Assembly (NCBI RefSeq): GCF_000526495.1
Contig: NZ_JAGE01000001.1
Coordinates: forward strand, 434,001-498,000
Length of the DNA stretch: 64,000 nucleotides
Direction of reading: 5' to 3'
DNA from: Ruminiclostridium josui JCM 17888
Lineage (GTDB): Bacteria > Bacillota > Clostridia > Acetivibrionales > DSM-1351
The notes under the pieces were generated by a model. It searched no databases and was not told where the DNA came from. It saw only the letters and a program-made list of their open reading frames with translations. Below are positions 13,388 to 62,043 of the stretch, one piece after another. Every line of letters starts with the position of its first letter. The first letter of the stretch is position 1. A program made the position numbers and the translations under genes.

Positions 13388-13456
13388 ATATTTTATGTAT
13401 CTATAATGACTGTTATTGGCATTATATGAATATATAAATGTTTTTTGGAGGGTAAA

Positions 13457-14251
13457 GTGAAAGATCAAAAACTCTGGAGATACTATGACTTGATAAAATT
13501 TCTGACATTGATTAACGGCGAGTTATATTTTGCACGTGCAGACAGTTTTAAAGATAAATATGAAGGTGCAATACCCAAGCAAACTTTTCAAAGTATGATA
13601 GAAAATTTCAAAGATTACAGCACTGCCAAAAACAAAGATGATATAATACTTGAATTCCAAAAAATTTTCAATGAAAAAAGAAAAAAAGCTGCAATAAGCT
13701 GCTGGCATATCAATGATACCGAATCTGCTGCAATGTGGGAATTATATTCAAAAGCTGGCTTTGGAATTGCAGTCAATACTACTATAGAAAAGCTGGCAAA
13801 TTCATTGGTTATTCCCGAGGGATATAAAATGATTATGTCACAAGTAAACTATATAGATTTTGACAAGGAAAACAATACCGACTACATTTATAATGAACTT
13901 CTTCCTTTTAAAAATAAAAGAAAAGAATTTATTTACGAAAATGAGTTCAGAATTATTCTTTATAAGGAAAGTAAAGACTCAACCTCTGTTTCCTCTTACC
14001 CTGATAAAACCATTCTTGCTGACAAAGTGAGGCAAAGGTTTCATTTTGGGCTTGAAAATCTCCCCTCAGAAGGGATAAAAGTTAAAGTAGATCCTTCTAA
14101 AATCATTCTAGAGATACTGGCTTCGCCCTATATGAAAAATTACGAGGTAAAAGAAATCAAAAGACTTCTTGATATTATAAACAGCCACAATAACACGAAC
14201 TTCACAATACGCCATTCTAACATTTATGACAATTTAAATTATTCAAAGTAA
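13457..14251 (+). CDS. DUF2971 domain protein
   Basis: 264 aa with GTG start 13457 preceded by GGAGGG (a TTG at 13445 lies inside the ribosome site). DUF2971 features are an N-terminal LINGELYFARADSFKDKYEG, the central ISCWHINDTESAAMWELYSKAGFGIAV and a late F-K-KRKEFIYENEFRI. Function is not established for the family; members are often near mobile elements and defense loci. It is the last host gene before attL. Confidence 0.8.
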   Translation: MKDQKLWRYYDLIKFLTLINGELYFARADSFKDKYEGAIPKQTFQSMIENFKDYSTAKNKDDIILEFQKIFNEKRKKAAISCWHINDTESAAMWELYSKAGFGIAVNTTIEKLANSLVIPEGYKMIMSQVNYIDFDKENNTDYIYNELLPFKNKRKEFIYENEFRIILYKESKDSTSVSSYPDKTILADKVRQRFHFGLENLPSEGIKVKVDPSKIILEILASPYMKNYEVKEIKRLLDIINSHNNTNFTIRHSNIYDNLNYSK

Positions 14252-14410
14252 AAGTGGTTGTTGCAAAACATAAAGCTTTTTGATTTAATACCTGTACTCC
14301 CGTATAAAATTGTACCAATGATTTTTTTCAAAATCACATCCTGTGATTTGATTTTTCTAAAATTAAAAAAAGTACGAAAAATATTCTTTGAAAATAGCCT
14401 GAGAACGCCA

Positions 14411-14437
14411 AAAAACTCGCTAACATAGCGAGTTTTT
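14411..14437 (-). terminator. Original terminator of the tRNA-Arg transcript, now displaced
   Basis: 11-bp stem AAAAACTCGCT/AGCGAGTTTTT with a 5-nt loop and a T run on the minus strand. Reading leftward from the tRNA 3' end copied in attL, it lies 10 nt beyond the CCA. Before phage insertion it would have terminated the tRNA-Gly/tRNA-Arg transcript. It may also serve the plus-strand DUF2971 gene. Confidence 0.75.
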
Positions 14438-14447
14438 AGACAAATTG

Positions 14448-14497
14448 TGGCGTGCCCATGGGGATTCGAACCCAAGACCTACGGCTTAGAAGGCCGT
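14448..14497. repeat. attL
   Basis: 50-bp copy of the 3' half of tRNA-Arg, from the encoded CCA (TGG on plus) to the anticodon stem, identical to 61967-62016. Flanking bases differ at both ends (g/a on the left, a/t on the right), which fixes the repeat limits. Confidence 0.95.
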
Positions 14498-14625
14498 AAA
14501 ATCGCGTTTTACTCAATTTATTGTGAACCACTTGATACTACTGCACTTTATAATTATTTGTTTTAACCCATTTTGTTGAGTATTTGACAACTTTTAAATT
14601 ACTCAATAAGTAATTAAATACGATT

Positions 14626-14808
14626 TTAAAGTTTGGATGGGCAAATTTCACGGCATAAAACCATGTATCTTTCTAGTGAGTTAACAACATTTCTAAGATG
14701 AATTATTTCGATATCTTTATCTGTCATTTTATCGGATAATTCATTATATGCAGATGAATATTCATCCCATGCTTTTATTGCTTCTGTATTTTGTTGATTG
14801 CCATTCAT
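14626..14808 (-). CDS. Small prophage protein, unknown
   Basis: 60 aa, acidic and helical (EAIKAWDEYSSAYNELSDKMTDKDIEIIHLRNVVNSLERYMVL), probably a short coiled coil. GGAGAG precedes the ATG. It is the leftmost gene of the prophage, divergent from the predicted small RNA promoter. No family recognized. Confidence 0.55.
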   Translation of the reverse strand: MNGNQQNTEAIKAWDEYSSAYNELSDKMTDKDIEIIHLRNVVNSLERYMVLCREICPSKL

Positions 14809-14842
14809 AATACTTTTCTCTCCTAAATTTTAAATTTGGAGG

Positions 14843-14877
14843 AATGTGCAAAAATATAACATAAATAATGTGCCAAA
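14843..14877 (+). repeat. Direct repeat AATGTGC(C)AAA upstream of the small RNA promoter
   Basis: AATGTGCAAAA (14843-14853) and AATGTGCCAAA (14867-14877) repeat with a 24-bp period, ending 6 bp before the -35 box. This is the geometry of an activator bound as direct repeats; the nearby LytTR regulator is an obvious candidate but the link is untested. Confidence 0.4.
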
Positions 14878-14883
14878 TTGTTT

Positions 14884-14912
14884 TTGACATAGGTAAAATT
14901 CTACAGTAAAAT
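14884..14912 (+). promoter_or_regulatory. Near-consensus sigma-A promoter (small RNA)
   Basis: TTGACA (14884-14889), 17-bp spacer, TAAAAT (14907-14912). The predicted start is about 14919. Confidence 0.7.
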
Positions 14913-14918
14913 TAAATG

Positions 14919-15023
14919 TGAAATGTATGTCTATTCGTACATTTCTTGCACATACCTCGATATGGGGTGTGCTTAAAAGAGAGTTTATCCTATACTTCGC
15001 CGTGTAGTAAACTCTCTTTTTTT
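14919..15023 (+). ncRNA. Predicted three-hairpin small RNA of the prophage
   Basis: Between the promoter and a strong terminator lies about 105 nt with three consecutive stems. Hairpin 1 is GAAATGTA/TACATTTC (14920-14945), hairpin 2 GCACATACC/GGGGTGTGC (about 14948-14972), and the third is a terminator of 13 bp (14975-14987 with 15008-15020), extended by a 6-bp inner stem and a seven-T run. The only open frame is a 17-codon one without a ribosome site, so a non-coding role is favoured. It sits about 270 bp upstream of the agr regulator gene. Confidence 0.6.
14975..15023 (+). terminator. Intrinsic terminator of the predicted small RNA
   Basis: 13-bp perfect stem AAAAGAGAGTTTA/TAAACTCTCTTTT ending in TTTTTTT. 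Nothing protein-coding is transcribed into it from the left. Confidence 0.85.
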
Positions 15024-15296
15024 AACTCCCTTTCCAGTGCAATTTTCCTGATAAGTTATCACCTCCCCTAATAAATTTTTATTAAAATTGTGTTTTGAAT
15101 GTTTTAATGAAAGAGTAATGTAATTTAATAAAAATATTTACCAAATATTGTTGTCAAAGTATATAATTAAATGTTACGATAATATTATAACAATTGGTAC
15201 AAATTTTTCCATACATATATTTCTACAAAATTATATAAAATTCTATTTTTTATGTGCTTATATTACCTTGTATGGGGATAGTAACTGGAGGTTAAC
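15024..15296. other. Leader region of the agr regulator operon
   Basis: AT-rich DNA with no supported gene. It presumably holds the promoter for the plus-strand regulator/kinase pair; no site matching the promoter consensus stands out. GGAGG lies immediately before the ATG at 15297. Confidence 0.35.
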
Positions 15297-16010
15297 ATGA
15301 TAAACATTGCCGTTTTAGAAGATGATCCGAAAATTATTTCGGATTATGAAAAGAATCTGCCATGTATTTTAGAAAAAAATAATATTGAAGGAGAATTGAT
15401 TGTTGTAACAGATTCACCAGATAGATTTATTGATAAAGTCAAAAAAAGTATTGTCAACGTCTGTATAATTGATATCAATCTTCGAACAAACACAACTGGA
15501 ATGCACATTGCTGAACTTATACGTGAAGAAGGAATAAATTGTGAAATAATATTTATGACCGGTCACCTGGAATATATGCAACAGGCTTTTAGCGTAAAAG
15601 CATTTAATTTTATAACGAAGCCAGGTTGGTCAGCATTGGAAACAACACTAGTAAAAATATCAAGAGAGCAATCTAAGGGGCTAAGGTCGTGTATAGATAT
15701 AAAATGTAATTCTCAAATTTTTTTTATTTCTATCAACGATATTTATTATATAGAACGAATTCAAACAAAAACTTATATATATACTAAAAATGATATTTAT
15801 TCCACATATGAAGGGTTAGAGGAACTTGCCGCAAGAATAAACGATCCCCGAATTAAACGTTGTCATAGATCTATTTTTGTCAATATCGAATATATTCATT
15901 GTCTAGATATGAAAAGTAAGATTCTGACACTAACTAATGGAGTTAACTGTAATATAGGCCCCAAATACTATAATAATTTAAAAGATTGGAGGGACTTTTT
16001 ATGTTTGTAG
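15297..16010 (+). CDS. agrA: LytTR-type response regulator (AgrA-like)
   Basis: 237 aa. N-terminal receiver domain with acidic pair ED-D at residues 8-10, phosphoacceptor Asp59 in CIIDINLR, MTGH near 88 and Lys108 in ITKPG. C-terminal LytTR DNA-binding domain (about 135-237) with YYIERIQTKTYIY and RCHRSIFVNIEYIH. AgrA proteins of this type activate promoters carrying paired direct repeats. It overlaps the kinase gene by 10 nt, so the two are co-translated. It is the response arm of a prophage-borne peptide quorum-sensing system. Confidence 0.9.
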   Translation: MINIAVLEDDPKIISDYEKNLPCILEKNNIEGELIVVTDSPDRFIDKVKKSIVNVCIIDINLRTNTTGMHIAELIREEGINCEIIFMTGHLEYMQQAFSVKAFNFITKPGWSALETTLVKISREQSKGLRSCIDIKCNSQIFFISINDIYYIERIQTKTYIYTKNDIYSTYEGLEELAARINDPRIKRCHRSIFVNIEYIHCLDMKSKILTLTNGVNCNIGPKYYNNLKDWRDFLCL

Positions 16011-17296
16011 GCGTTTTATTAGTTAATACTTTTTTCGCTATGGTCACAGCATGGCTAATATTTTATTTTATTAAATCAACCTTTGTTATAAACATTACAC
16101 AATCAAAATTGATTTGTTTTATTTTTAGTTTTGGTATTTTAAACGGTTCTGTATCATCTTTATGGACTAAATATATTAACTTCTCACAGAGTATTCAGCT
16201 AATAAAACCAATTTTATTACTAGTCTTAAGTGTTGTGCTTATAAAATTTCTTTTAAAGGCAGAATGGTTACAGGTAATTTTATCATTTTGCTTTATATCA
16301 TTAATCATGGGCATATCAAACTTTTTGGTTCCAACGATTATTAAAGTTACTGTTGAAGATACCCAAACGGATTTTAAAACTTTTTTATTAGTTAATATAC
16401 TAATAAACTTGTTAACTACACTAATTGTAGTTTTTACTCCTTACATAAAAAACATTGGTAAAGCCAAAAATCTTAATCCAATAGCATTTTTACTTTTACT
16501 TACTTTTGTAATAATGGCATTAAATTTTGGTGTCCACTATGTATCAAGTTTTAATCCGATTACTTTTACTGCTGCTTTGATATCATCGCTTGCTTATTTT
16601 TTATCTACGCTTATATACATATCTAGGTTTAGTAAATATGAACTTAAAATGGAAGAGCAAAAGCAACAAGCATTTTATAATGAATCACTGTCTACTTCCC
16701 TTCAAGATTTGCGAAGATTCAAGCATGACCAGAACAATCATTTGTCTGTCATCGAGGGTATGTTGAGGATGGGAAAAAGTCAGGAAGCATATTCTTATTT
16801 ACAAGAGATAACGTCATCAAGTGATAATAATATAAATACAGCAATATTTAACTTAAGGAATGCAGGACTTTTTTCTATAATATCATCAAAGATGGATAGA
16901 GCAAAAAAATGTGAAGTAGATTTTAAATTAAATACTATTGGTGTTATTGACTCAATAGATAATATAAAGATATCCGACCTGTGTGAAATTATCGGTATTT
17001 ATCTAGACAATGCAATCGAAGCTGCCTCCGAAAGTGATATGAAACAGGTTGAAGTATTGGTTATAAGTTCTGATACTAGTATAGACATAACTATTAAAAA
17101 TAGTTGTAAACAGTCTCCTGTGATGCACAAAATAAAAATAGATGGATATTCATCAAAAACTGGTACTGATAGAGGTCATGGTCTATCTATAGTAGATAAA
17201 ATCCTTCAAAAATATAAAAACGTATTGAATAATATAAATTTTGATGAAAATGCAATGCAATTCGTTCAAATGCTAAAGATTGAAAAAGGCTCATAA
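16001..17296 (+). CDS. agrC: GHKL sensor histidine kinase (AgrC-like)
   Basis: 431 aa. The N-terminal half has six or so membrane helices (about 1-205), typical of peptide-sensing AgrC proteins. Then comes a dimerization helix with the phospho-acceptor in LRRFKHDQNNHL and a GHKL ATPase domain with the N-box EIIGIYLDNAIEAA and G-box GTDRGHGLSIV. ATG 16001 follows GGAGGG (a TTG at 15986 lies within that ribosome site). Predicted to sense the cyclic peptide made from the convergent agrB/agrD genes. Confidence 0.9.
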   Translation: MFVGVLLVNTFFAMVTAWLIFYFIKSTFVINITQSKLICFIFSFGILNGSVSSLWTKYINFSQSIQLIKPILLLVLSVVLIKFLLKAEWLQVILSFCFISLIMGISNFLVPTIIKVTVEDTQTDFKTFLLVNILINLLTTLIVVFTPYIKNIGKAKNLNPIAFLLLLTFVIMALNFGVHYVSSFNPITFTAALISSLAYFLSTLIYISRFSKYELKMEEQKQQAFYNESLSTSLQDLRRFKHDQNNHLSVIEGMLRMGKSQEAYSYLQEITSSSDNNINTAIFNLRNAGLFSIISSKMDRAKKCEVDFKLNTIGVIDSIDNIKISDLCEIIGIYLDNAIEAASESDMKQVEVLVISSDTSIDITIKNSCKQSPVMHKIKIDGYSSKTGTDRGHGLSIVDKILQKYKNVLNNINFDENAMQFVQMLKIEKGS

Positions 17297-17306
17297 AGCC
17301 TTTTTC
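17282..17306. terminator. Shared bidirectional terminator between agrC and agrD
   Basis: 10-bp perfect stem GAAAAAGGCT/AGCCTTTTTC with a 5-nt loop, overlapping the agrC stop. The arms supply A and T runs for both directions, separating the two convergent agr transcripts. Confidence 0.8.
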
Positions 17307-17328
17307 CGATTCTTAGCATTTTTTCTGA

Positions 17329-17472
17329 TTATTTTATTAATGACTCCGGGCATTTTCTTTGATGCATAGACCAAAGCCAACATCCGTTTGCTGAAGCAGT
17401 TGAAAAGAATAAACTAATCATTGTTATCCCTAAAAGAACGAATAGTTTGATTTTATGTGGTCTTATCTTCAT
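17329..17472 (-). CDS. agrD: AgrD-like cyclic-lactone autoinducer precursor peptide
   Basis: 47 aa. An amphipathic, membrane-targeting N-terminus (KIKLFVLLGITMISLFF) is followed by STASANGCWLWSMHQRKCPESLIK. This matches the layout of clostridial AgrD: a Cys a few residues before aromatic residues, then a charged PESL tail recognized by AgrB. The predicted thiolactone would form through the Cys in NGCWLW; a second Cys (KCPE) is unusual. GGAGGTGGAAATC places a good ribosome site before ATG 17472. The gene overlaps the 3' end of agrB by 20 nt, so translation is coupled. Confidence 0.88.
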   Translation of the reverse strand: MKIRPHKIKLFVLLGITMISLFFSTASANGCWLWSMHQRKCPESLIK

Positions 17473-18058
17473 GATTTCCACCTCCTTGATTAGACAACGT
17501 ATTGCCCGTTATTTTATAAACAATTGGTGTCAACATCAGGGATACAATTAAAGAATTCAAACAAATAAGATTGCTAAATTCACTAGGTACAAAAAATGAT
17601 ATTGAAAATAGTATCAATAATGATGTCAGTCCGAAAATCCTTAGTTTCTTTCTGTGATATTTAGAGCGAACAGGTTTGCATGGCAAATCAGCAGGAGCAT
17701 ATATAAACGATAGAATTATAGCAATAGGAAAGCCTACCAAATTGATATGCGGAATGTTAAACATTAAAGATAAATAAATGCTACCATATATGAAAATAGG
17801 ATAGGTAATAATGCATTGTATCTGAGTTTTTGAATGTATTCCTCCTAAAAAAACTCGAAGCATCCCAAAGGTAACTATGGCTACCAGTACATGTGTTAAT
17901 AGATTAAGGGGCAAAGAGATAAGTATCAAGGCTAATACTTTAGGAGTATCACTCAAAGCCATATAAAGACCGTATTCAATACGTTCGGCCTTATCTTGAT
18001 ATTCAGGTAAACTTTGAACAATTTCATTAGTAATACTTTTTGTAATACTTTCTAACAT
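17453..18058 (-). CDS. agrB: AgrB-like peptide-processing membrane protease
   Basis: 201 aa with several membrane helices. AgrB cleaves and cyclizes the AgrD peptide at the membrane. The catalytic His and Cys occur as GGIHSKTQIQC, with the H-x6-C spacing of known AgrB enzymes, preceded by RVFL. ATG 18058 is chosen from AGGGTGA upstream; the GTG at 18067 lies inside that site. A candidate promoter on the minus strand reads TCGACA-N17-TAAAAT about 20-45 bp upstream. Confidence 0.9.
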   Translation of the reverse strand: MLESITKSITNEIVQSLPEYQDKAERIEYGLYMALSDTPKVLALILISLPLNLLTHVLVAIVTFGMLRVFLGGIHSKTQIQCIITYPIFIYGSIYLSLMFNIPHINLVGFPIAIILSFIYAPADLPCKPVRSKYHRKKLRIFGLTSLLILFSISFFVPSEFSNLICLNSLIVSLMLTPIVYKITGNTLSNQGGGNHEDKTT

Positions 18059-18172
18059 TAAAATCACCCTATATTATTTTATACCATAAGGGATTATTTG
18101 TCGATTATTGTTTTTTAAAACATTATTTTGTATTTTGTTAATCATTTTCCAACCAATGTTCAACATCAACCT

Positions 18173-18193
18173 CCCCTGACAATCTGCCAGGGG
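18173..18193. repeat. Short hairpin between the zinc-ribbon gene and agrB
   Basis: Arms CCCCTGACA/TGCCAGGGG (one wobble) with a 3-nt loop. There is no T run on either side, so it is a weak terminator candidate or an mRNA structure. Confidence 0.4.
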
Positions 18194-18207
18194 AATATCA
18201 GAAAATC

Positions 18208-18426
18208 TTACTGCTTAGTCCCGCAATTCATGCATATAAAATCTGTAGTAGTTGTAATTTTCCCTTTTGAACCTCCCCGGATCAGTGGAACTATTATCCA
18301 TAAACCAAGTGTCATAATTGTAAGAAAAATATGTACTAGAGTCATTAAGCAACCTCTCTTTTTAATCTTACCATGAGTATTGGCAATAGCTTGAATATTT
18401 TGGCTCCCACATTTTTTACATATCAT
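18208..18426 (-). CDS. Small zinc-ribbon membrane protein
   Basis: 72 aa. CKKC near the N-terminus and CMNC at the C-terminus form one split zinc ribbon flanking a hydrophobic helix (MTLVHIFLTIMTLGLWIIVPLI). A GAGGATG ribosome site precedes the ATG. It is upstream of agrB on the same strand and may be co-transcribed with it. Function unknown. Confidence 0.65.
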   Translation of the reverse strand: MICKKCGSQNIQAIANTHGKIKKRGCLMTLVHIFLTIMTLGLWIIVPLIRGGSKGKITTTTDFICMNCGTKQ

Positions 18427-18764
18427 AAAATCATCCTCGTATATATATTTATATATAATTTAACATTAAATGTAATTAAATACAATATTCAACTAATATA
18501 TTGGCTATTGATAAATTCAATAAAGTTATATGTATTGTATTATTTTGTAATATATTGTATAATTTTATTATCATTTCTTGATTCACATCAAAAATTTGAA
18601 AATTTCTTGATTACACAAAAGACGGGCTTCGGCTCGTTTTTTGTTTGCATGCTATTTCAGGCTTATGCGAACTAACATTTGCGAGTAAACAAATACTGCA
18701 TACTTTTTAAATATGCAGCTAATTTAAGTTGTTTTATATAAATAATCTTAACTAAAATTGGAAT
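18427..18764. other. Intergenic, possible small transcript and terminator
   Basis: No protein gene seen. A strong GC hairpin (ACGGGC-TTCG-GCTCGT, 18619-18640) with TTTTTTG on the plus strand and CTTTTG on the minus strand could terminate both ways; on the minus strand it would end the 18765-19634 gene. Upstream on plus, TTGTAT-N17-TATAAT and the doubled element TTTCTTGATT hint at another short RNA, but the AT content makes chance likely. Confidence 0.4.
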
Positions 18765-19634
18765 TTAGTATTTAGGAACAAAGTAATATTCCATTGGATT
18801 TTTTTCTTTATCTAACTTACTACGGCTACAAACCAATATGTTCTTAAATAGAATTGATCTTTGGTCTCCAAGTATTACATTATGATATGTTAATGGATCA
18901 GCTTCCTTTACACGCGATGTATCGAACAATTGTACATAGATATTTTGACTATTCCCTTTTAAGCAATTATAAGCACAAGTAGGTGACATAGGAAACACCT
19001 TGCAAAAGCACATTTGTGCCACCAATACATTTAATTCCTTACCTGCATTCTTCCTTTTGTCAAAACTTCTTTCGTATACTTTATAGTTTCTTTCTATAAA
19101 TGTTCGTTGAACAGTTGGATATATATATACTGAATAGTTCTCTTTATCCTCTTGTACTAAACTTAGTTGAATATTATCATCATTTGTATTTTCGTTTTCA
19201 TTCCAAGCAAAAAGGGTATTAAAAAAATCGTTTCCTACCAACTTATCAGAAAAACCAAACCCAAGAAATAAATCTCGCTCATTAGTTGCCATTATCATCC
19301 CTGTCCATTTGTTACCATCCCAATTTTGGGGCAAAGGCTGAACCAACATTATCGTATGTATAAAGATTATTTGTTCAAAAATTTGATCTATAAAAAATAG
19401 AGCTATCGAGAAAAGCATTGAATGATACCAAGTTGAAAAAGCAATGACAGACGATGCGATACCGATTATTGTTAATAATCTCAATATCCACTTTACGCTT
19501 TTTTCATTCTTCTCGTTTACTTTTATATGTGGCATTTTGTCTTGTATCACCACATCGAATTTAGAACGAATATAGTGCAACTTAACTTGCATTCTCCGTA
19601 TGTTCCTACGAAATTTATTTAATATACTTTGCAT
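18765..19634 (-). CDS. Membrane-anchored protein of unknown function (accessory)
   Basis: 289 aa. A basic N-terminus (KFRRNIRRMQVKLHYIR) is followed by two close hydrophobic segments (about 50-95), then a soluble C-terminal domain of about 190 residues with scattered Cys and a FLGFGFSDKLVGNDFFNTLF segment. No family recognized. It is divergent from the P-loop ATPase gene across a 305-bp gap. Its place in the prophage cargo region makes an exclusion or defense role possible, but nothing in the sequence proves it. Confidence 0.6.
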   Translation of the reverse strand: MQSILNKFRRNIRRMQVKLHYIRSKFDVVIQDKMPHIKVNEKNEKSVKWILRLLTIIGIASSVIAFSTWYHSMLFSIALFFIDQIFEQIIFIHTIMLVQPLPQNWDGNKWTGMIMATNERDLFLGFGFSDKLVGNDFFNTLFAWNENENTNDDNIQLSLVQEDKENYSVYIYPTVQRTFIERNYKVYERSFDKRKNAGKELNVLVAQMCFCKVFPMSPTCAYNCLKGNSQNIYVQLFDTSRVKEADPLTYHNVILGDQRSILFKNILVCSRSKLDKEKNPMEYYFVPKY

Positions 19635-19939
19635 ATTTATCTCCCCAACAGTTTATTTAGAACAATAAATTCCTATTTAACATTGCACCGAGATTTCAAA
19701 CTGTTATTTACTACTACTTATTTTATAATATAATGCTAAAAAATGGAATATAAATGACTTATATTAGACTATTGCGATCTAATTTTTTGGTAAATATTCT
19801 TAGAATAAATATATAAATTAGAAGGTTTTTACAAAATATAGTAGAATATTAAGAATATTACAAATATTTATTATGGACATATAATGGGATGTTAGAAATA
19901 ATACGTAAATTAGAACTATTGATAATTTAAGGAGTAAAA
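19635..19939. promoter_or_regulatory. Divergent intergenic region (membrane protein / ATPase)
   Basis: A 305-bp, very AT-rich gap between divergent genes that must hold both promoters. Several TATAAT-like stretches occur but none has a clear -35 partner. No gene seen. Confidence 0.35.
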
Positions 19940-21619
19940 ATGGATATATTTAATAAAAGGCCTTTTAAAACTATAAATGCAGATAAGTTTGATTTAGAAG
20001 AAGTAATAAAAATGTTTGTTAATCCATTAGATGCACTAGGTGATCCATTTAGTTTTGAAAGCAGTATCATAAAAGGTGAGATGGGAACTGGCAAGACAAT
20101 GTATTTACGTGCGAATCATGCTATTTATGATTATCAGTTATTGCAATCAATGATAAATGGAGAACCTTTAATCATTCCTATATATATTAAATTGAGTGAT
20201 TTTTCTGATAGCAAAGACCCTCGTACAATATATCAAAATATAATTAAAAAGCTTATTTCAGAACTCTCAAAAATGTATAAGAAATTTGCGGATAAAGAGA
20301 ATTTTGCGAATATACATAAAGGTATAGTAAATTTGCCAAGTACCTACTTTAATTATGGTGTTCTATCAAAAATTGAAGAAAAAGTTCGGAAGTTAGATGT
20401 TGAGCAGTATAAGGAGAAAATATTAAAACAGTTGGATACTAAATGTGGATTGGAGCATCAGCTTATTAAAGCATCTGCTTCTTACCATAATGAAAAATTA
20501 GTTGAAATTACTGAACGCAAAGATGTTAGTTTTGCTGATCTGGAAAAAGCATACGAATGGATTTTAAGAGAAGGGACAGATAGGATATTATTTCTGTTTG
20601 ATGAAGCTGGTTCTTTGTCTACAAAGTTTTTTAATGAAGAGGGGGATTCGTACTTTGAAATTTTAATGAACCAACTTAGAACTTTAAAAGAATCCGAAAT
20701 TAAAATTGCTGTTTACCCTCATACTGCTTCTGATAAGTTGAAAAATGTTAAGTTTGGACAACCTATAGTTCTAAAAGAAAACATATATAATATTGATGGT
20801 TACAAAAAGTTTAGAAATAAAGTAATAGAATTAGTAGACCGATATTTGGAGAATTATTCCATAAATTGTAAGTTACATGCAAACAACATTTTTGAAATGC
20901 ATGAATCGAATGAGTTTGGTGATTCTATTGAACAATTAATCTTTGGATCCAATGGCGTTATGAGATACTTTGTTTATTATGCAGATATAGCTATGAAAAT
21001 ATGTGACTCAAAAAATAAAAGTAAAATTGATAAACAAGATGCTATAGCTGCTTTAACAGAAGCAGGTAATGAAACGAAAGGACGTTATGGCGATAGGGAT
21101 CAAGAATTTTTAGACAATATTGAAAAAAGACTTCGTGCAAATAAAGGAACATTTAAATTTAGATATCTGTATAAATCTCTTCAGCTACAAAAATTCATTG
21201 ATAAAAATAATAATCAGAGCATAATAAGAACTGTCGACTCATCTTCTAAAAAAAAGGGTACAGTATATTCTCTCGATTATGCATATTGTGTTTCACAAAA
21301 TATAGCTACACATTACGAAAAGAATTCTCAAAAGATTGATCGAGAAAGAAGCTATTTAACTGGTGAGTGGATTTCAAGACTTGTTACAATAAAGGATAAT
21401 AAAGATGATATTTTCGAGGCCGACGTAATATTAATAGGCACTATAAACTTTTTGCTTGAAGATAAAACATATGTTATATGTGAAAACGGTGAAAAATATC
21501 TATTATTAAAAGATAATATATTAAATATTGAAAAGGGATTAAAAATCGGTAAACAAATTGAATTTACTCCCCTTGAAATAGATGGCGTAAAATACTGTAG
21601 CCACGCAAAAATTTTGTAA
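19940..21619 (+). CDS. P-loop ATPase with C-terminal cold-shock-like domain (candidate defense protein)
   Basis: 559 aa. Walker A GEMGTGKT at residues 46-53 and Walker B ILFLFDEAG near 217-225, with YPHT where sensor residues are expected, place it with ORC/STAND-like AAA ATPases. The last ~65 residues (GTINFLLEDKTYVICENG ... LKIGKQIEFTP) follow the beta-strand pattern of a cold-shock OB fold, suggesting nucleic-acid contact. GGAG precedes the ATG. It has no viral structural role that I recognize; with the nearby TIR gene it looks like anti-phage cargo. Low GC matches the island. Confidence 0.65.
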   Translation: MDIFNKRPFKTINADKFDLEEVIKMFVNPLDALGDPFSFESSIIKGEMGTGKTMYLRANHAIYDYQLLQSMINGEPLIIPIYIKLSDFSDSKDPRTIYQNIIKKLISELSKMYKKFADKENFANIHKGIVNLPSTYFNYGVLSKIEEKVRKLDVEQYKEKILKQLDTKCGLEHQLIKASASYHNEKLVEITERKDVSFADLEKAYEWILREGTDRILFLFDEAGSLSTKFFNEEGDSYFEILMNQLRTLKESEIKIAVYPHTASDKLKNVKFGQPIVLKENIYNIDGYKKFRNKVIELVDRYLENYSINCKLHANNIFEMHESNEFGDSIEQLIFGSNGVMRYFVYYADIAMKICDSKNKSKIDKQDAIAALTEAGNETKGRYGDRDQEFLDNIEKRLRANKGTFKFRYLYKSLQLQKFIDKNNNQSIIRTVDSSSKKKGTVYSLDYAYCVSQNIATHYEKNSQKIDRERSYLTGEWISRLVTIKDNKDDIFEADVILIGTINFLLEDKTYVICENGEKYLLLKDNILNIEKGLKIGKQIEFTPLEIDGVKYCSHAKIL

Positions 21620-22066
21620 TTTGATAAACAAATATATCTTTTGAACCATTTCAGGGAAAAATGGCAAATAAGAACGGATGCATAATATAAAGAATTGATT
21701 TAGGGGTTACACTACAAGAAATCTCGTATTTTTATGTAGAATAGGAATTGTCGAAATTTGCATAACGTGTAATTATCTTGGTCAATGAGAAAGCAATGTA
21801 TTTATTTTGAGTAATCGATTACTTGATCTCATATTTCAGAAAGACCCAGCTATAAAAAGCCTAGGGGTTAAATAAGCTTTTTAAGGGGTTAAATAAGCTT
21901 TTTAAATTGTGCAATGAGCATTACCTGAAAGTTACCAACTGTGAACCGGAGTACCGTTTATTTATATTTTGAAACGTGGGATGTGTGGCTCTATGTGCTT
22001 ATTTTGGATTATATCAGTTATTATAGATTAATTATTTCAATAAAAAAATATAGGGGGAATAAAACT
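21620..22066. other. Intergenic with tandem repeat
   Basis: 447 bp without a supported gene. It holds the 21-bp tandem repeat at 21863-21904, and a GGGGTTA copy of part of that unit near 21702. The real TIR start is at 22067. Confidence 0.4.
21863..21904. repeat. Tandem 21-bp direct repeat
   Basis: The unit begins AGGGGTTAAATAAGC and is repeated exactly twice head to tail upstream of the TIR gene. Each unit contains AAGCTTTTTA. Could be regulator half-sites or a slippage duplication. Confidence 0.8.
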
Positions 22067-22780
22067 ATGTCAAGATGTACAGCACCAGTTAACGGTCATC
22101 GCACAGCAAGTGGAAGGGCAAACTGCCCAGTATGTGGAGGGGGAGGTCGTTATGGAGGTTACAACCCTTATCCATCATATTCTGGACCGTATTCTTCATC
22201 ATCACCGTATTCTTCATCATCAAACATTTCTACAAGTCGTAGTAGTTATGGCGGACAAACTAAGACTAAAGCACGTTGGTCTTCAGTTGGTTCTACTATT
22301 TTATATACTCCTGCGGAAATTCGAACACTTACCCCTGTGCGTGAAAATGTTGAGAAGCGTTCGAAATTACCAGATTTACGAGATGTTTTTCTTTGTCACG
22401 CTTGGGATGACCGTAAAGGCGCAGCTAAAGAATTACACGATTTACTTGAATCAAAAGGTGTAACTATTTGGTTTAGTGAAAAGGATGTTCCTTTAGGTTC
22501 ATCTTTACTTCGTGAAATTGATAAAGGGTTGGCAAAATCTCGTGTCGGTATTGTATTGGTTACACCTTCGTTTCTTAAACGTATTGAGGGAGAAGGAATA
22601 GCAGATAAAGAACTTTCAGCTTTGCTAGCTCGTGATTTGCTTATCCCTATTGTACATAATACGACTTTTGAGAATTTACGTGAAGTTAGTCCGTTACTTG
22701 GCTCGCGAAGTGGCTTAAGTACTATTGAAGAATCAATGGTAGATGTTGCGGCTAAAATAGCGGAATTGGTTACTACATAA
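22067..22780 (+). CDS. TIR-domain protein with N-terminal Cys/His motif
   Basis: 237 aa. ATG 22067 follows TAGGGGGAATAA; a longer in-frame extension to 21941 has no family features. The N-terminus has CTAPVNGHRTASG...CPVCGG, a short conserved Cys/His motif seen at the start of many bacterial TIR proteins. A Ser/Tyr-rich linker follows. The TIR domain (about 100-235) has DVFLCHAWDD, GVTIWFSEKDVPLG, and the catalytic-region Glu in IADKELSALLARD. Bacterial TIRs usually cleave NAD+ or make signals in anti-phage defense. No Thoeris ThsA-like partner is adjacent. Confidence 0.82.
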   Translation: MSRCTAPVNGHRTASGRANCPVCGGGGRYGGYNPYPSYSGPYSSSSPYSSSSNISTSRSSYGGQTKTKARWSSVGSTILYTPAEIRTLTPVRENVEKRSKLPDLRDVFLCHAWDDRKGAAKELHDLLESKGVTIWFSEKDVPLGSSLLREIDKGLAKSRVGIVLVTPSFLKRIEGEGIADKELSALLARDLLIPIVHNTTFENLREVSPLLGSRSGLSTIEESMVDVAAKIAELVTT

Positions 22781-22802
22781 ACGATATAAAAAATCAAACT
22801 CT

Positions 22803-22990
22803 ATGGATGAATAGCACTGCCGATAACGAGCGGTTTGGCATAACGGCTGCACTAACCCTGCAGAAAAGGTAGTTTGAAATTGAGAGTTTATAGCTCGCTT
22901 GAAAGGAAGTGCCGCCGGACGTTGTAGGCAATGGACAAGTTTAGTAAAAGCAAACTCAGCAGTTCGAACTATTTTATGAACTGCCAATGA
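22803..22990. other. GC-richer structured segment after the TIR gene
   Basis: This non-coding stretch is visibly less AT-rich than its surroundings. GCATAAC...GGCTGCACT near 22840 can pair imperfectly with AGTGCCGCC...GTTGTAGGC near 22910-22930, resembling the outer boxes of an integron attC site (RYYYAAC ... GTTRRRY). One mismatch and unequal spacers make it a weak match. Confidence 0.3.
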
Positions 22991-23026
22991 TGTTTATAAT
23001 CACAAAACTAAATATGTTTTGATATT

Positions 23027-23063
23027 AGTTGAACTGCCCTCAAATACTGAGGGCAGTTCAACT
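23027..23063. repeat. 16-bp perfect inverted repeat beside the methylase stop
   Basis: Arms 23027-23042 and 23048-23063 (AGTTGAACTGCCCTCA and complement) flank a 5-nt loop, ending 3 bp from the stop of the 23066-23821 gene. There is no T run on the minus side; the plus side is AATTAATAATT. Very stable RNA hairpin. Confidence 0.85.
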
Positions 23064-23065
23064 AA

Positions 23066-23821
23066 TTAATAATTCCTAATTATAACTTCCCCATACCGCC
23101 TATCTCCATCTGAATACCTTGAAGTAAGGTTGTGGTTCCTTTCAACACCTTCTATTATAAAGTCCTTGTATAGCTCCCGGACAAATCCACAATCATTATA
23201 TGATAATATGAACTTGCCTTTCAGGTTCTTAAGTACTTTACAGAGTCGCTCATGATCCTCCTGGGCAAACTGTGCCTGATAATACTTTTCGGTGCCGTAG
23301 TAAGGCGGGTCCAAGTAAAAAAGAGCTGAAGGCTTATCATAAACCTTTATCAATGATTCGAAGTCCTTGTTTTCGACAACTACCCTAGACAGTCGTTCCT
23401 GAATCCGGTTTAAATACTCTACAGACGTTGAAGTATCTCTTTTTATACATCCATAGGAGCTCACGTTACAACCATAGCTCGTTTTTATAAGCATAAAAAA
23501 TCTTGCTGCCCTTTGTATATCCGTCATGCCTCTGATATTATACTGGGCCTTGAAATCCTCAAAGAGCTCCCTGGAATTAAGCATACAGGAAAGCTCCCGC
23601 TGCAGCTCCTGACAGTGGTATTTAATACACCGATATAAATTAACCAGGTCACTGTTGTAGTCATTATATACTTCCATTTCAGCATGCTTGTCGCTGTAGA
23701 ATAACACCCAGGCAGCTCCTCCGAACACCTCTATATACCTATCAAAATTATCCGGAAACCGTTTTACAATCTCCTTCCTTAAAAGTTTCTTACCGCCTAT
23801 CCATCCAATAAAACTATTCAT
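23066..23821 (-). CDS. D12-class DNA adenine N6-methyltransferase (Dam-like), copy 1
   Basis: 251 aa. SAM-binding motif FIGWIGGKKLLRKEI at the start, VFGGAAWVLF, and catalytic DPPY in LFYLDPPYYGTEKYY identify a D12-class (Dam/DpnM-type) enzyme. ATG 23821 follows GGAGGG; the TTG at 23839 lies inside that site. It is the most downstream gene of the late block, after the endolysin. It is only distantly similar to the second Dam-type enzyme at 51588-52400. Probably protects phage DNA from host restriction. Confidence 0.9.
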   Translation of the reverse strand: MNSFIGWIGGKKLLRKEIVKRFPDNFDRYIEVFGGAAWVLFYSDKHAEMEVYNDYNSDLVNLYRCIKYHCQELQRELSCMLNSRELFEDFKAQYNIRGMTDIQRAARFFMLIKTSYGCNVSSYGCIKRDTSTSVEYLNRIQERLSRVVVENKDFESLIKVYDKPSALFYLDPPYYGTEKYYQAQFAQEDHERLCKVLKNLKGKFILSYNDCGFVRELYKDFIIEGVERNHNLTSRYSDGDRRYGEVIIRNY

Positions 23822-23901
23822 AAAATAAAATCCCTCCAAAGTTATTGTTAGGGATGCCGTGGAAATTTATCGTAGTACTATAGTTGTTAACACCCTATTA
23901 T

Positions 23902-23933
23902 AAAAAGTCACCCCCAGGAGTTAACCCTGAAGG
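23902..23933 (-). terminator. Terminator after the lysis genes
   Basis: Stem CCTTCAGG/CCTGGGGG (two G-U pairs) followed on the minus strand by GACTTTTTATAA. It lies between the 23943 gene and the methylase. Confidence 0.55.
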
Positions 23934-23942
23934 TTTAATGAA

Positions 23943-24269
23943 TTAATGCCCTGTACCATTTACTTTGCCATCATCCAAGCTGTCTTTTATCAGGTCAAAC
24001 CATTCCTGAAGCTTTCGCTCAAGTAGACTTCTAGGTATAAAAAATCTAAGCCAAGTCGGGATCATACTGTATAATTGAGATAACACAAAACCAAACCGTT
24101 CTTGCCCCATTTTTGTACCTGTGATGGCTTTTTCAGCTTGAAGAATTAAATTATATGCTAATTCCCTTAATTTTATCCAACGGCGTTTTACAGCCAAATA
24201 GACTATGTATTCAACTAGACAAATGCCAACCACAATAATAAACCAATTGTTTAATAGAAACTCTCGCAT
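23943..24269 (-). CDS. Holin-like one-helix membrane protein (phage)
   Basis: 108 aa. A single N-terminal membrane helix (NWFIIVVGICLVEYIVYLAV) is followed by a basic patch and an amphipathic soluble tail with AEKAITGTKMGQERFGFVLS and WLRFFIPRSLLERKLQEWFD, a pattern seen in LLH-type clostridial phage holins. Its ATG overlaps the stop of the endolysin gene, so the two are coupled. Confidence 0.65.
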   Translation of the reverse strand: MREFLLNNWFIIVVGICLVEYIVYLAVKRRWIKLRELAYNLILQAEKAITGTKMGQERFGFVLSQLYSMIPTWLRFFIPRSLLERKLQEWFDLIKDSLDDGKVNGTGH

Positions 24270-24964
24270 TATGCCATCCCTCCCAATCTTTTTACTATGT
24301 TCATCACAAAGGCCGCAAAGTACTTCTCTGATTTAAGTTTTGGTGTCCACTCTTCAGGCTTAGTTTGGGTAGCCTTTATAACTTCTTCAGCAGTATTAAA
24401 ATTGTTTCCCAAGATATCCTGACAACACATCAATACTTCCATTGCTTTTGCCTTTGTTATAGGGCCAGCAATGCCGTCTGCTTTTAGTCCTGTCATGCTC
24501 TGAAATGTTTTTATATTCATTCCTATATTCACTCCTCTCAATACACTGTTTCTGATTGCTTCCTTTTGGGACAGACTTATACCGTTATGTTCAATCAACT
24601 GCACATGCCATGGCTCATAGCTCATCGGCTTAACAAGTCCATATTTCTTCAGTTCATCGTTTCCAAGTGACTTGAACCAGCTGTCTCCTATATCCATTGC
24701 AATGCAGTAACAATGATTACTTTTACCATAAGCTGCAGCAAGGCACTCTCCGTTTTTACTGTACACAGAGCCGTCAGCCCGCTGTTTGCTCCCTGGATTG
24801 TCAGCAAGTACCTGCCTTGCTATAATCTTTTGCTTCTCCACACTCCTGAATCCTGATGTACAGAGACAATCCCTGCCTTTTGCTACACACAGCGTGTTGA
24901 CTGCTACAATTAATTTTGGATAAACCGAGGTTTCATCAAGATACTTAAATTTTACTTGGGGCAT
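24269..24964 (-). CDS. Endolysin: M15 peptidase with peptidoglycan-binding domain
   Basis: 231 aa. The N-terminal two thirds is a VanY/M15 zinc DD-peptidase: TSGFRSVEKQ, then KSNHCYCIAMDIGDSW (His and Asp metal ligands, SxH...D) and EPWHVQL (Glu and third His). The C-terminal third (MNIKTFQSMTGLKADGIAGPITKAKAM) is a peptidoglycan-binding repeat. ATG 24964 is favoured, with AAAGGAG 9 nt upstream. It sits between two holin-like genes, forming the lysis cassette. Confidence 0.88.
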   Translation of the reverse strand: MPQVKFKYLDETSVYPKLIVAVNTLCVAKGRDCLCTSGFRSVEKQKIIARQVLADNPGSKQRADGSVYSKNGECLAAAYGKSNHCYCIAMDIGDSWFKSLGNDELKKYGLVKPMSYEPWHVQLIEHNGISLSQKEAIRNSVLRGVNIGMNIKTFQSMTGLKADGIAGPITKAKAMEVLMCCQDILGNNFNTAEEVIKATQTKPEEWTPKLKSEKYFAAFVMNIVKRLGGMA

Positions 24965-25310
24965 AGTTCTCATCTCCTTTAACGATCTGTCTTTTAGTCT
25001 TCACTGGTAATTCTTTTAATTCATCTACAAGCTTTGTAACTGTTCCGTTACCCCCTAGCTTGTGGTACGCATCATACATTGCTAAAACGCTTTCCAGACC
25101 GTGTATAGAGATATGTCCACGGTCAATATACATGTCATAGCACCTTATTATTTCACTTCTTAAAAGTGATTGTGTACCTTCTTTAAGAGCCTTTTGATCA
25201 CATGATTGCCTATGTATACGTTTTGACAATATTTTATACGCCGCTCCCAACCCTCCCGATGCAATTCCAAACAGCACTTGCATCCAATATTTGATAATAA
25301 AATCTTTCAT
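24945..25310 (-). CDS. Phage holin-like / lysis-accessory membrane protein
   Basis: 121 aa. One N-terminal membrane helix (YWMQVLFGIASGGLGAAYKIL) is followed by a charged domain with LLRSEIIRCYDMYIDRGHISIHGLESVLAMYDAYHKLGGNGTV, the signature of a common Firmicute phage protein beside endolysins. AGGAGG-type site upstream. It overlaps the endolysin start by about 20 nt. Confidence 0.75.
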   Translation of the reverse strand: MKDFIIKYWMQVLFGIASGGLGAAYKILSKRIHRQSCDQKALKEGTQSLLRSEIIRCYDMYIDRGHISIHGLESVLAMYDAYHKLGGNGTVTKLVDELKELPVKTKRQIVKGDENYAPSKI

Positions 25311-25343
25311 TTTATGTCCTCCTTAAAGATGTTTTGAGTAAAG

Positions 25344-25373
25344 TAAAAGGACTACCCATTTCTGAGTAATCCT
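25344..25373 (-). terminator. Terminator upstream of the lysis cassette
   Basis: Stem AGGATTACTC/GGGTAGTCCT (two G-U pairs) followed by TTTTACTTT on the minus strand, between the 25522-26226 gene and the holin gene. Lysis genes downstream would need read-through or their own promoter. Confidence 0.65.
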
Positions 25374-25521
25374 CTTTGTACATATTAACATGCTAATACA
25401 TCCATATAAATTTGGTTCAAGGTAACAAAAAAATGATAACTTTACATTTAAATTTTTATAGCAGTTCGCCTAATTCTATCTAATATTTCTCAATCGTATT
25501 AACTAAGAATACAAAAAGGCC

Positions 25522-26226
25522 TTATAGTTCAGCGTGATTCTTTTCATTAATAACTCTCAACCCCTTTACCATATCTATTAACGAACAAATATAGTGTGCT
25601 GTTAATAAAGGTATATTAGCTGTTTCAAAATTATTAATTAATATATAATATTCCGGCGAGCTTTCTATTAGGTGTAGTAGATCCCGTATTTCCACATCTA
25701 TTTGATTGTTATAGTGTGATATTATTTTATTACTTCCTTCGTTAGCATAATATATAATCTTATCAAACAATTCTTTTCTCTTGATTGTATAGGTAATATC
25801 ACTTACTGAAATTTCAACGTCTGATTCCCAAAAGCCCTCTTTAGTTATGATTTTACCTATTTCACCATTTTTCATACTTAAAATATTAATTCTTCCATTA
25901 GGCTTGCTTATATTACCCTTTGCTAATAACCTTTCTAATAGTCCTTCCATATTCTCACAGTACATTTCCATATACTGTATTGCTATATCTTTAACTTTAC
26001 TTTCTTGTCTTCTATATCTTTCTGAAGCCAAAAAATCTATAAAATATATTGTAACCAGAACACCTAAAAATTCAGCTAAATAATTATCAGCATTGCTACT
26101 ATGTATCCTCCATATAACAAGTGGTATAGATATAAACAAAATAAGTATTGAGGTAACCAGTCCTAGGCTTTTTATATGCACAAAAAACCTTTTTGCTATT
26201 TTTCCGAATATCTTTACAAGATTCAT
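25522..26226 (-). CDS. Two-helix membrane protein, unknown (possible superinfection exclusion)
   Basis: 234 aa. Two N-terminal membrane helices (LVTSILILFISIPLVIW and FLGVLVTIYFIDFLAS) are followed by a soluble, Glu/Ile-rich domain of about 160 residues with helices around MEMYCENMEGLLERLL. No family recognized. It is placed between tail fibre genes and the lysis cassette, a usual place for phage cargo. GGAGG precedes the ATG. Confidence 0.6.
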   Translation of the reverse strand: MNLVKIFGKIAKRFFVHIKSLGLVTSILILFISIPLVIWRIHSSNADNYLAEFLGVLVTIYFIDFLASERYRRQESKVKDIAIQYMEMYCENMEGLLERLLAKGNISKPNGRINILSMKNGEIGKIITKEGFWESDVEISVSDITYTIKRKELFDKIIYYANEGSNKIISHYNNQIDVEIRDLLHLIESSPEYYILINNFETANIPLLTAHYICSLIDMVKGLRVINEKNHAEL

Positions 26227-53819: not shown

Positions 53820-53975
53820 CTACCATGTTCCGTAGTTCCCTTTTGCAAAGTACTCGGTTTTACCCTCTTCATTCGCCTTTATTAGATTATTGATTGCCTT
53901 TATTCGTTTACGCTGTTTTTGCTTTTTCAAGATTAGTGTTTTAACCTCTTCCACACTCAATTTCCTCTCAGCCAT
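53820..53975 (-). CDS. Small basic phage protein
   Basis: 51 aa (MAERKLSVEEVKTLILKK...KGNYGTW), helical and Lys/Arg-rich. The ATG overlaps the end of the ParB fusion gene by 8 nt, so it is translationally coupled. Function unknown. Confidence 0.65.
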   Translation of the reverse strand: MAERKLSVEEVKTLILKKQKQRKRIKAINNLIKANEEGKTEYFAKGNYGTW

Positions 53976-55137
53976 CCTCACAGATACCTCCTAACTGTAA
54001 GATTTTCTTTCCTAGCTGCTTTGCAAGTTCTTTCTGATGCAACATATCCTGTGTAATTTCTCCATCCTCTTCAAACACCCAAACTTCATCGACAATCCTT
54101 ATCATTTCAAACCCTACCTGTAGCATGTTAAGCATTCGTTCGTAATGCCCACCATCTAATATCCCATGCAACATGACAGCACTTGAAAAAGGAATATGCC
54201 CTTGTGCAACTACATGCTTGCAGTACCTAACTGCTTTAAGATAGTCTTCATCTTCTCCGCTATAAGCACTACATACATATACATTAAGTAACCTGTCAGG
54301 TGTTAACTGTTCCGGCTCTTTTTGTGTGACCTCTTCCGTGATTGTTGTTTTGGTAATTACTGTTGTTGACGGGTTTGGGGTTGGGTTGGATTGTGATTTC
54401 TGCTTGGTCTTCTTGCTTTTGACCTCATCTGCAGATATGCTGCCTTTGTCGGTATATGCCTGATACGCTGTCTGCTGTTCTTCTGGTGGTAATTTTGCCA
54501 GTTCAATCGCAGTTGACATGTTTATGTTTTGTTCTTTTAGTTCTTGCTTGAATTCGTTTGAAAGGTTCTTTGATACACTATCCCGCCTCTGAACCTGTGT
54601 TGTTGATGTGTCTAATATTTTAGCTATAAGCTCACGCATACGACCAGGTATGTTTTCTCTTTTCTTGTATTCCTTTAGTACAGCTGTTAGCCTTTCAACT
54701 TCCTGAATTTTGTCGTAATCCGTTTTTTCTCTTTGACTGTTTGTTAGGATCAGCAGAAGTTCTTCCCTCAATGCCTGTGCTTTCGCATCCTCTTCCGTTT
54801 CCTCTACACAGCAGGGTAACATTTCAAATTCCTTCTTACCCTCTTCAACTAATTGCCACGATGCCATACAGCGGCGGTGTCCTGCTACAACTCTATATTT
54901 ACCATTGCCGAGAGGAAAAACATTAAGGTTTTGCAACACACGACCAGCAAGCTCTATTGTTGTTTTCAATTCCTGTATTTGCTCCATTGAATAGAAATTG
55001 CCCTCTGACGGTACCAGATCATGTATGCTTATGTACTTAAAGTTTGAAATTGTATTTTTCAATTCCTCTTCGGCTTTTTCAGCTATGTTTTCCTGATTTA
55101 CCTGAGCGAGAATATTACTCAAACTTAATCTGGACAT
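53968..55137 (-). CDS. parB: ParB-like protein fused to a deoxyribosyltransferase-like (DUF7768/DUF4406) domain
   Basis: 389 aa. N-terminal ParB/Srx-type domain: ISIHDLVPSEGNFYSMEQIQELKTTIE, LGNGKYRVVAGHRR, then the DNA-binding helices LIAKILDTSTTQVQRRDSVSKNLSNEF. A Lys/Thr/Pro linker (about 240-275) leads to a C-terminal Rossmann-like domain (LNVYVCSAYSGEDEDYLKAVRYCKHVVAQGHIPFSS... VDEVWVFEEDGEIT) of the nucleoside 2-deoxyribosyltransferase-like group. ATG 55137 follows GGAGG. Adjacent to parA. Confidence 0.85.
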   Translation of the reverse strand: MSRLSLSNILAQVNQENIAEKAEEELKNTISNFKYISIHDLVPSEGNFYSMEQIQELKTTIELAGRVLQNLNVFPLGNGKYRVVAGHRRCMASWQLVEEGKKEFEMLPCCVEETEEDAKAQALREELLLILTNSQREKTDYDKIQEVERLTAVLKEYKKRENIPGRMRELIAKILDTSTTQVQRRDSVSKNLSNEFKQELKEQNINMSTAIELAKLPPEEQQTAYQAYTDKGSISADEVKSKKTKQKSQSNPTPNPSTTVITKTTITEEVTQKEPEQLTPDRLLNVYVCSAYSGEDEDYLKAVRYCKHVVAQGHIPFSSAVMLHGILDGGHYERMLNMLQVGFEMIRIVDEVWVFEEDGEITQDMLHQKELAKQLGKKILQLGGICEDG

Positions 55138-55174
55138 TACTCTACCTCCATTTGTGACCAATTTGGTCACATTT

Positions 55175-61966: not shown

Positions 61967-62016
61967 TGGCGTGCCCATGGGGATTCGAACCCAAGACCTA
62001 CGGCTTAGAAGGCCGT
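61967..62016. repeat. attR
   Basis: 50-bp repeat identical to attL, forming the 3' half of the intact tRNA-Arg. Confidence 0.95.
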
Positions 62017-62043
62017 TGCTCTATCCAGCTGAGCTATGGGCAC
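61967..62043 (-). tRNA. tRNA-Arg (anticodon TCT)
   Basis: 77 nt including an encoded CCA. Acceptor GTGCCCA/TGGGCAC, discriminator G, anticodon loop CTTCTAA. Its 3' 50 nt are supplied by the phage at attR, restoring a full gene. Confidence 0.97.

Follow-up and report, generated by a model that had tools for sequence, protein, structure and literature searches.

INTRODUCTION

Phage-borne agr genes are known from Clostridioides difficile: in the available part of its description, the agr3 set of phage phiCDHM1 comprises agrB, agrD and agrC and no response regulator gene (PMC3901668), and the accessible text on prophages phiMMP01-03 reports agrC and agrD only (PMC10778935). Likewise, AgrA is absent from the phage agr sets cited in the available portion of a 2025 review (PMC11945551), and from phiCDHM1 in that of a 2021 article (PMC7790227). 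Phage-borne agr has been a curiosity since phiCDHM1: how could a set without its own regulator act? Here we describe a 64,000-nucleotide stretch (positions 434001-498000 of contig 1; the window) of the 4.47 Mb, two-contig genome of a Ruminiclostridium, a cellulose-degrading relative of Clostridium, in which a dormant prophage carries agrB, agrD, agrC and agrA.

An original prediction for this stretch had proposed such a system, citing phiCDHM1 as its precedent and calling a set with its own AgrA-type regulator unusual. The precedent is real and, since phage agr sets are described without agrA in the portions of these four sources available to us, the regulator is indeed unusual. Among the matches listed in the open-licence literature, we recognized no phage agr set with agrA and no agr in Ruminiclostridium prophages. 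Thus phage-borne agr itself is known, while the four-gene phage set and its recurrence beside an integrase appear to be new.

RESULTS

A complete agr gene set

The set consists of two convergent pairs, with gene starts chosen from ribosome-binding sites:

15297-16010, + strand: agrA-like response regulator of 237 amino acids with receiver and LytTR domains (PF00072 (Response_reg), 9e-12; PF04397 (LytTR), 1.1e-19)
16001-17296, + strand: agrC-like membrane histidine kinase, 431 amino acids from its ATG (HATPase_c_5, 1.7e-15; SPOB_a, 1.4e-6)
17329-17472, - strand: agrD precursor, 47 amino acids from the ATG at 17472, core ...NGCWLWSMHQRKCPESLIK (TIGR04223), overlapping agrB
17453-18058, - strand: agrB processing protease/exporter, 201 amino acids from the ATG at 18058 (PF04647, 111 bits; cut-off 23)

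All four genes are intact and lie where the prediction had placed them, with the 47-amino-acid AgrD precursor that it gave. As it also noted, genes overlap, agrA and agrC by 10 bp and agrB and agrD by 20 bp. The first pair runs rightward and the second leftward, with about 30 bp between them, and the set is not one operon. The His-x6-Cys pair of AgrB (H78 and C85), also noted earlier, is invariant in all 14 aligned AgrBs, and D59 of AgrA is invariant in all nine aligned regulators. The AgrD precursor scores 25 bits against a TIGR04223 cut-off of 19 (scored on a 50-amino-acid frame) and contains a Cys core and a Pro-containing tail. A thiolactone ring around C-W-L-W-S-M is predicted, its end being placed by analogy with clostridial peptides. 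The N-terminal half of AgrC is hydrophobic, giving a polytopic membrane sensor followed by a GHKL kinase. In comparisons with solved structures, the kinase-family profile matches the S. aureus AgrC kinase module (4e-24) and the regulator-family profile matches AgrA LytTR domains; the AgrB profile had no match there.

The set lies inside a myo-type prophage of 47.6 kb that extends from 14448 to 62016 and is flanked by a 50-bp tRNA-Arg repeat, as expected from the proposal of attachment (att) sites. Genes for terminase, portal, protease, capsid, sheath, tape measure and baseplate (model matches) are located between the att copies, as are Rep and ParB genes. Its ends, with the lysogeny genes near the right one, are as follows:

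14448-14497: attL, an exact 50-bp copy of the tRNA-Arg 3' end (direct-repeat search, ARAGORN)
60002-60619, + strand: helix-turn-helix (HTH) and S24 peptidase repressor, CI/LexA-like (PF00717 above its cut-off, PF01381 slightly below)
60631-61911, + strand: tyrosine integrase, adjoining attR (PF00589, PF14659)
61967-62016: attR, the 50-bp repeat within an intact tRNA-Arg gene (61967-62043, - strand; ARAGORN, repeat search)

The agr genes are the first recognized gene set inward from the left end. Judging from the coordinates, about 0.9 kb would separate the cassette from the integrase in the circular phage, with attP between them.

Related cassettes beside integrases in other prophages

The AgrBs nearest to that of the window are encoded in genomes G006 (locus L037, 53% identity) and G005, R. 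papyrosolvens C7 (L038, 51%), both in prophage early regions. In gene calls made partly with models and partly by eye, both loci show the same order: integrase, agrB-agrD convergent with agrC-agrA, a cI-like HTH gene, and phage replication/partition genes. The cI-like gene is upstream of agrA, and agrB and the integrase start back to back across a short gap. Window AgrA shares 59% and 54% identity with the regulators of two other prophage cassettes. A PF00589 recombinase lies within about 1.2 kb of three of the 20 agrC-bearing loci in eight genus genomes (L037, L038 and L061, described below), where our own estimate of the chance expectation, from 95 PF00589 matches in about 39 Mb, is about 0.1. 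R. sufflavum (G003) has a four-gene agr set that follows tail, endolysin and holin genes.

It had been conceivable that the cassette is a separate element inserted in the phage. This idea is not supported: the surroundings of the cassette showed neither a recombinase nor a long repeat of its own, and other prophages carry related cassettes next to the integrase.

For phylogenetic trees, duplicate fetches, rows shorter than 150 amino acids (including an AgrB fragment of G002) and matches weaker than the set E-values were left out; three further AgrBs of the host genome were among the rows dropped for weak E-values. In the AgrB tree, the proteins of the three prophages group together (support 98/95), to the exclusion of the 13 other genus AgrBs. 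Window AgrA pairs with that of L037 in the AgrA tree (85/94), and in the AgrC tree the window kinase is not grouped with those of L037 and L038. Of the 11 genus genomes, three gave terminase matches: that of the window, G010 (47% identity) and G006 (33%, downstream of its agr set). G005 has no match to the window terminase.

In wider searches, tblastn of window AgrB against 50,697 phage records gave no match at 1e-3, host AgrB gave one weak match (0.07) and the window kinase matched 21 phage records, all below 32% identity and below 60% coverage. A megablast of 14400-26000 for close phage relatives found no match. Peptide-pattern scans of IMG/VR with two AgrB alignments and with window AgrA also gave no match. 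Such scans can miss relatives, since an exact promoter scan of IMG/VR yielded 34 stretches of which one had an AgrC match and was a viral record with agr genes. Plasmids gave three weak AgrB matches. Genome contigs gave no match when searched with window AgrB alone, and eight loci when searched with an AgrB alignment (seven Ruminiclostridium, one Hungateiclostridiaceae).

agr sets without agrB

Several relatives lack agrB. In a prophage of G005, L061 consists of agrA, agrC and agrD between a myo-type tail operon and a XerC-like integrase with a holin, and has an HTH gene upstream of agrA; by eye, its open reading frames (ORFs) read the same as those of the 45,661-base IMG/VR viral record found through its promoter. 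On contig 2 of the window's own genome, an agrA-agrC-agrD set without agrB (L060:7928-10148) lies near a short integrase ORF and transposase-like ORFs. A third such set is present in G005:C69 and G007, and in G005:C69 an agrB is about 4 kb away. The existence of these sets means that AgrD and its receptor can be carried along in the absence of the enzyme that processes AgrD, in which case the sets presumably depend on another AgrB.

We also observed an agrA-agrC-agrD set without agrB that is nearly identical across two species (L096:10711-17128 and L059:7919-11230). By eye, L059 has an HTH-like ORF upstream of agrA and a serine-recombinase-like ORF nearby.

A promoter block shared among agr loci

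Upstream of agrB are two elements:

18076-18122, - strand: agrB promoter, with block TGTTTTAAAAAACAATAATCGACAAAT (18096-18122), -35 TCGACA, 17-nt spacer and -10 TAAAAT
18171-18195, - strand: terminator-like hairpin, one of three such sites in 14450-20000, where 1.6 are expected

The exact 16-mer ACAATAATCGACAAAT occurs twice in the 4.47 Mb, at the prophage agrB promoter and at the contig-2 agrD of L060. Over 40 bp, 37 positions of the window promoter are identical in the orphan agrD promoter of L060 and 34 in that of L061; in the next 50 bp upstream, agreement drops to 0-4 per 10. Across the genus, ATCGACAAA together with TATAAT has 11 matches in seven of 11 genomes, and a reversed control has 4. 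Ten of the 11 fall at promoters of agrB or agrD, and the sole match elsewhere lies in G006 between ORFs without an evident link. ATCGACAAA also precedes the host chromosomal agrB, and the core is upstream of 11 of 17 distinct genus AgrB loci, as searched. We read the block as a putative AgrA-controlled promoter.

The window's own promoter differs in its -10 and is found by a looser pattern, which has five matches, three of them at agr promoters (control, 10). Allowing two mismatches, the 16-mer has 12 matches against 9 in the control. Given these controls, matches beyond agr sites are not evidence of more AgrA targets. Within the window, there is no second copy of the full block with up to three mismatches. 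The short core WTCGACAAW has four sites where 1.85 are expected, and 10 of 100 shuffles reach as many; one of the four, a core-like TTCGACAAT, is at 21747-21755 (- strand), between ATPase and TIR genes. As a general promoter scan gave 40 sites against 37.8 expected, it adds nothing by itself. An AgrA-type operator consists of two 9-bp direct repeats 12 bp apart. A second LytTR half-site 21 bp from ATCGACAAA, searched for by eye across the genus, was not found. In another family, a TTCGAYAAR-type pair is visible at L102 and L103.

Host agr and a possibly mosaic sensor

A search for chromosomal agr in the same genome, together with a comparison of AgrD cores, had been put forward as a check. The genome carries five AgrB genes. 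The chromosomal agrB closest to that of the prophage (48% identity) is part of L036, where agrB, agrD and agrC stand without a neighboring agrA. Of the 11 genus genomes, eight more have agrB-agrD-agrC without agrA in the fetched stretch (L039, L040, L041, L042, L044, L045, L047 and L050, with a short agrC in L041), not all in the same place. In the host genome just two regulators, that of the prophage and one encoded on contig 2, pass the AgrA-clade cut-off of 1e-40, the other five AgrA matches being at most 29% identical, and no AgrA of this clade was found in three of the 11 genus genomes (G004, G009 and G010). Across the order, AgrA-clade matches occur in 24 of 58 genomes (12 of 30 genera), and at 22 of 28 AgrA-clade loci the fetched stretch also contains agrC and a match to agrB, one of them a fragment. 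Another AgrB gene of the host genome (L051:6610-9274) lies, by eye, downstream of a very large synthetase-like ORF, and a different AgrD-like peptide (ACCSSYYQPKAPKHL) is encoded about 2 kb from this agrB.

The two halves of the prophage kinase differ in their relatives. The sensor half is 43.0% identical to host AgrC versus 25.7% and 28.4% to the kinases of L037 and L038, whereas the kinase half is 57.8% and 60.7% identical to L037 and L038 versus 51.0% to host AgrC. The predicted AgrD cores agree with the sensor-half pattern: CWLWSM in the window and CWFWSY in the host, with CWLFGF and CWLFGY in the other prophages. AgrD tails are CPESLI in the prophage and CPKSLL in the host. At L040, where no phage genes are visible, the kinase resembles that of the window in its sensor half (43.0%) as well as its kinase half (59.2%). 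The pattern fits an exchange of sensor domains, which, given the L040 likeness, may have taken place on either side.

Neighboring genes

The cassette's other neighbors encode a small zinc-ribbon-like protein, a protein with two hydrophobic segments, an ATPase and a ThsB-like TIR protein. The third of these, an AAA ATPase (19940-21619, + strand), lies beside the gene for the fourth (21941-22780, + strand; PADLOC, 3.8e-110), both in the prophage cargo block. The 289-amino-acid protein with two hydrophobic segments (18765-19634, - strand) is encoded between agr and the ATPase gene and is without a Pfam or PADLOC match at the cut-offs used. Guanine-plus-cytosine (GC) content is 29.7% in agr, 30.4% in the cargo and 30.4% in the repressor-integrase module, versus 40.0% for 23066-46000.

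Farther away, the prophage early region encodes a ParB-like protein (53968-55170, - strand) with a C-terminal stretch resembling nucleoside 2-deoxyribosyltransferase, and by eye a similar protein is encoded in the early region of the second agr prophage (L038:157-1278, - strand). Just beyond attL is a gene for a DUF2971 protein (13445-14251, + strand) like the PADLOC candidate PDC-S31.

DISCUSSION

Our findings make it very probable that this prophage owns a working agr-type circuit. How would it operate? AgrB would trim and cyclize AgrD and export a thiolactone peptide; AgrC would sense the peptide and phosphorylate AgrA; and AgrA would activate the agrBD promoter through the conserved block at its -35. 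Since AgrA would act on the promoter of agrBD, which the promoter motif suggests is its own target, the circuit would self-amplify as lysogens, and perhaps also cells with a similar signal, build up. The output could be lysogeny behavior, that is, holding or leaving the prophage state. This output is favored because related cassettes form part of the lysogeny module, with a cI-like gene on one side and the integrase on the other, and we regard lysogeny control as the main output as a serious possibility, if short of an even chance. Taken as a whole, a phage-owned, self-amplifying agr circuit with lysogeny behavior as its likeliest output is, by a slight preference, our best explanation. What the sequence establishes is the prophage with its four agr genes, the clade of prophage AgrBs, the synteny and the shared promoter block; peptide production, the phosphorelay, AgrA binding and the output are inferences.

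Several observations weigh against this explanation. The promoter core, in the form searched, was not found at six of the 17 genus AgrB loci, including the G006 prophage and G003, where agr lies beside lysis genes. In G009, agrB is preceded by the core although the genome has no AgrA of this clade, and a different regulator may thus use it. With a single copy of the promoter block in the prophage, agrBD is the one phage target that can be seen, and the case for a lysogeny output is one of position. Here, that position is adjacent to the integrase only across attP, and the other neighbors are cargo. The nearest terminase relative, that of G010, comes from a genome without an AgrA of this clade, and thus the cassette is not fixed in this phage type. 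Finally, the grouping of the three prophage cassettes in the AgrB tree is not reproduced with AgrA or AgrC.

Other roles for the cassette can be envisioned, and as lysogeny control, cross-talk with the host and timing of cargo are not exclusive, their probabilities overlap. The host-type sensor and the shared promoter element make cross-talk with host agr plausible, in which case the prophage would listen to, amplify or jam host agr, and its AgrA could act on the host agrB promoter. The original prediction had likewise raised eavesdropping on or jamming of host agr, as well as a tie between host density and phage or cargo expression. We regard cross-talk as possible but less likely than not. 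The 43.0% identity of the sensor half to host AgrC, against a kinase half nearer the other prophages, is consistent with it, as are the likeness of the predicted cores CWLWSM and CWFWSY, the presence of ATCGACAAA before host agrB, and a host locus without adjacent agrA in a genome where only the prophage and contig-2 regulators reach the clade cut-off. However, similar motifs do not demonstrate binding, and the G009 motif occurs without such an AgrA. The closeness of L040 on both halves also means that the mosaic may lie in the sensors of the other prophages, and the AgrD tails differ (CPESLI versus CPKSLL). It is less probable that the circuit is a switch for lysogenic conversion, timing the neighboring accessory genes (TIR/ThsB-like, ATPase) or host behaviors to the benefit of dense lysogens; we consider this unlikely. 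The cassette does lie within the low-GC accessory block on the attL side, beside the ThsB-like TIR and AAA ATPase genes, but the repressor-integrase module has the same GC content as that cargo, and by eye there are no such cargo genes beside the L037 and L038 cassettes. Similarly, TTCGACAAT lies between the ATPase and TIR genes, but as many short-core sites arise in a tenth of shuffled sequences, and the full block has no second copy in the window.

It is also conceivable that an ordinary chromosomal convergent cassette of the order was picked up by phages and has no phage-specific role. That the cassette type is common in the order, with agrC and agrB accompanying most AgrA-clade loci, and that the genome of the nearest terminase relative lacks it are in keeping with such a passenger. 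Yet the AgrBs of the prophages have a clade to themselves, none of the four genes is disrupted, and sets next to an integrase are found again in other phages, as judged by terminases that are 33% identical (G006) or gave no match (G005). We find a mere passenger quite improbable. A broader proposal, which goes beyond the phage-owned circuit, is that Ruminiclostridium prophages use agr as a dedicated lysogeny-communication module, a counterpart of arbitrium, placed between the cI-like gene and the integrase; that some have lost agrB and rely on the AgrB of the host or of another prophage; and that these elements and the host share one peptide network through the common promoter element. This proposal is speculative and, for now, somewhat unlikely to hold in full.

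The four-part prophage set offers a self-contained circuit that can be dissected by removing one gene at a time, and this genus of cellulose degraders has several prophages related to it. Because the promoter is shared among the prophage, a second element and the chromosome, cross-talk between phage and host agr is directly testable. Since the relatives have the set on the integrase side, a role like that of arbitrium merits testing beyond the AimR family.

How does this locus compare with known systems? Staphylococcus aureus agrBDCA has the same four components and domain make-up. It forms one operon, unlike the two convergent pairs of the Ruminiclostridium prophage, and the prophage proteins reach 74.6 and 49.2 bits with the staphylococcal models for AgrC and AgrA, whose cut-offs are 500 and 400. 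Closer to home, chromosomal agr cassettes of Ruminiclostridium and of the order have the same genes in the same convergent layout, with the promoter core in part of the genus. By AgrB phylogeny, the prophage sets stand apart both from the genus copies that have agrBDC and no agrA and from four-gene copies found outside the three prophages, which fall in a different clade.

Among phages, phiCDHM1 is similar in that AgrB, AgrD and AgrC genes are carried by a temperate myophage of a clostridial host with a proposed role in density signaling. It differs, in the available part of its report, in lacking a regulator, which the Ruminiclostridium prophage encodes at 15297-16010, and in an AgrC described without an identified receptor domain, where the Ruminiclostridium kinase has a host-like sensor half (PMC3901668; compared by description). 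The same text reports predicted AgrB and AgrD in the Paenibacillus phages Davies, Emery and Abouo, with integrases present as here, and AgrC candidates that, again by description, are without the kinase ATPase domain (PMC3901668). As far as the accessible text describes them, phiMMP01-03 are without AgrB, like L061, whereas the AgrB-less sets of Ruminiclostridium additionally carry agrA (PMC10778935). Lastly, the arbitrium system (AimR-AimP-AimX) of SPbeta-type phages would share the purpose proposed here, phage-encoded peptide communication that steers lysogeny. Its parts, in the portions of the literature available to us, are a hexapeptide and an intracellular receptor, in contrast to the membrane two-component system of the prophage agr set.

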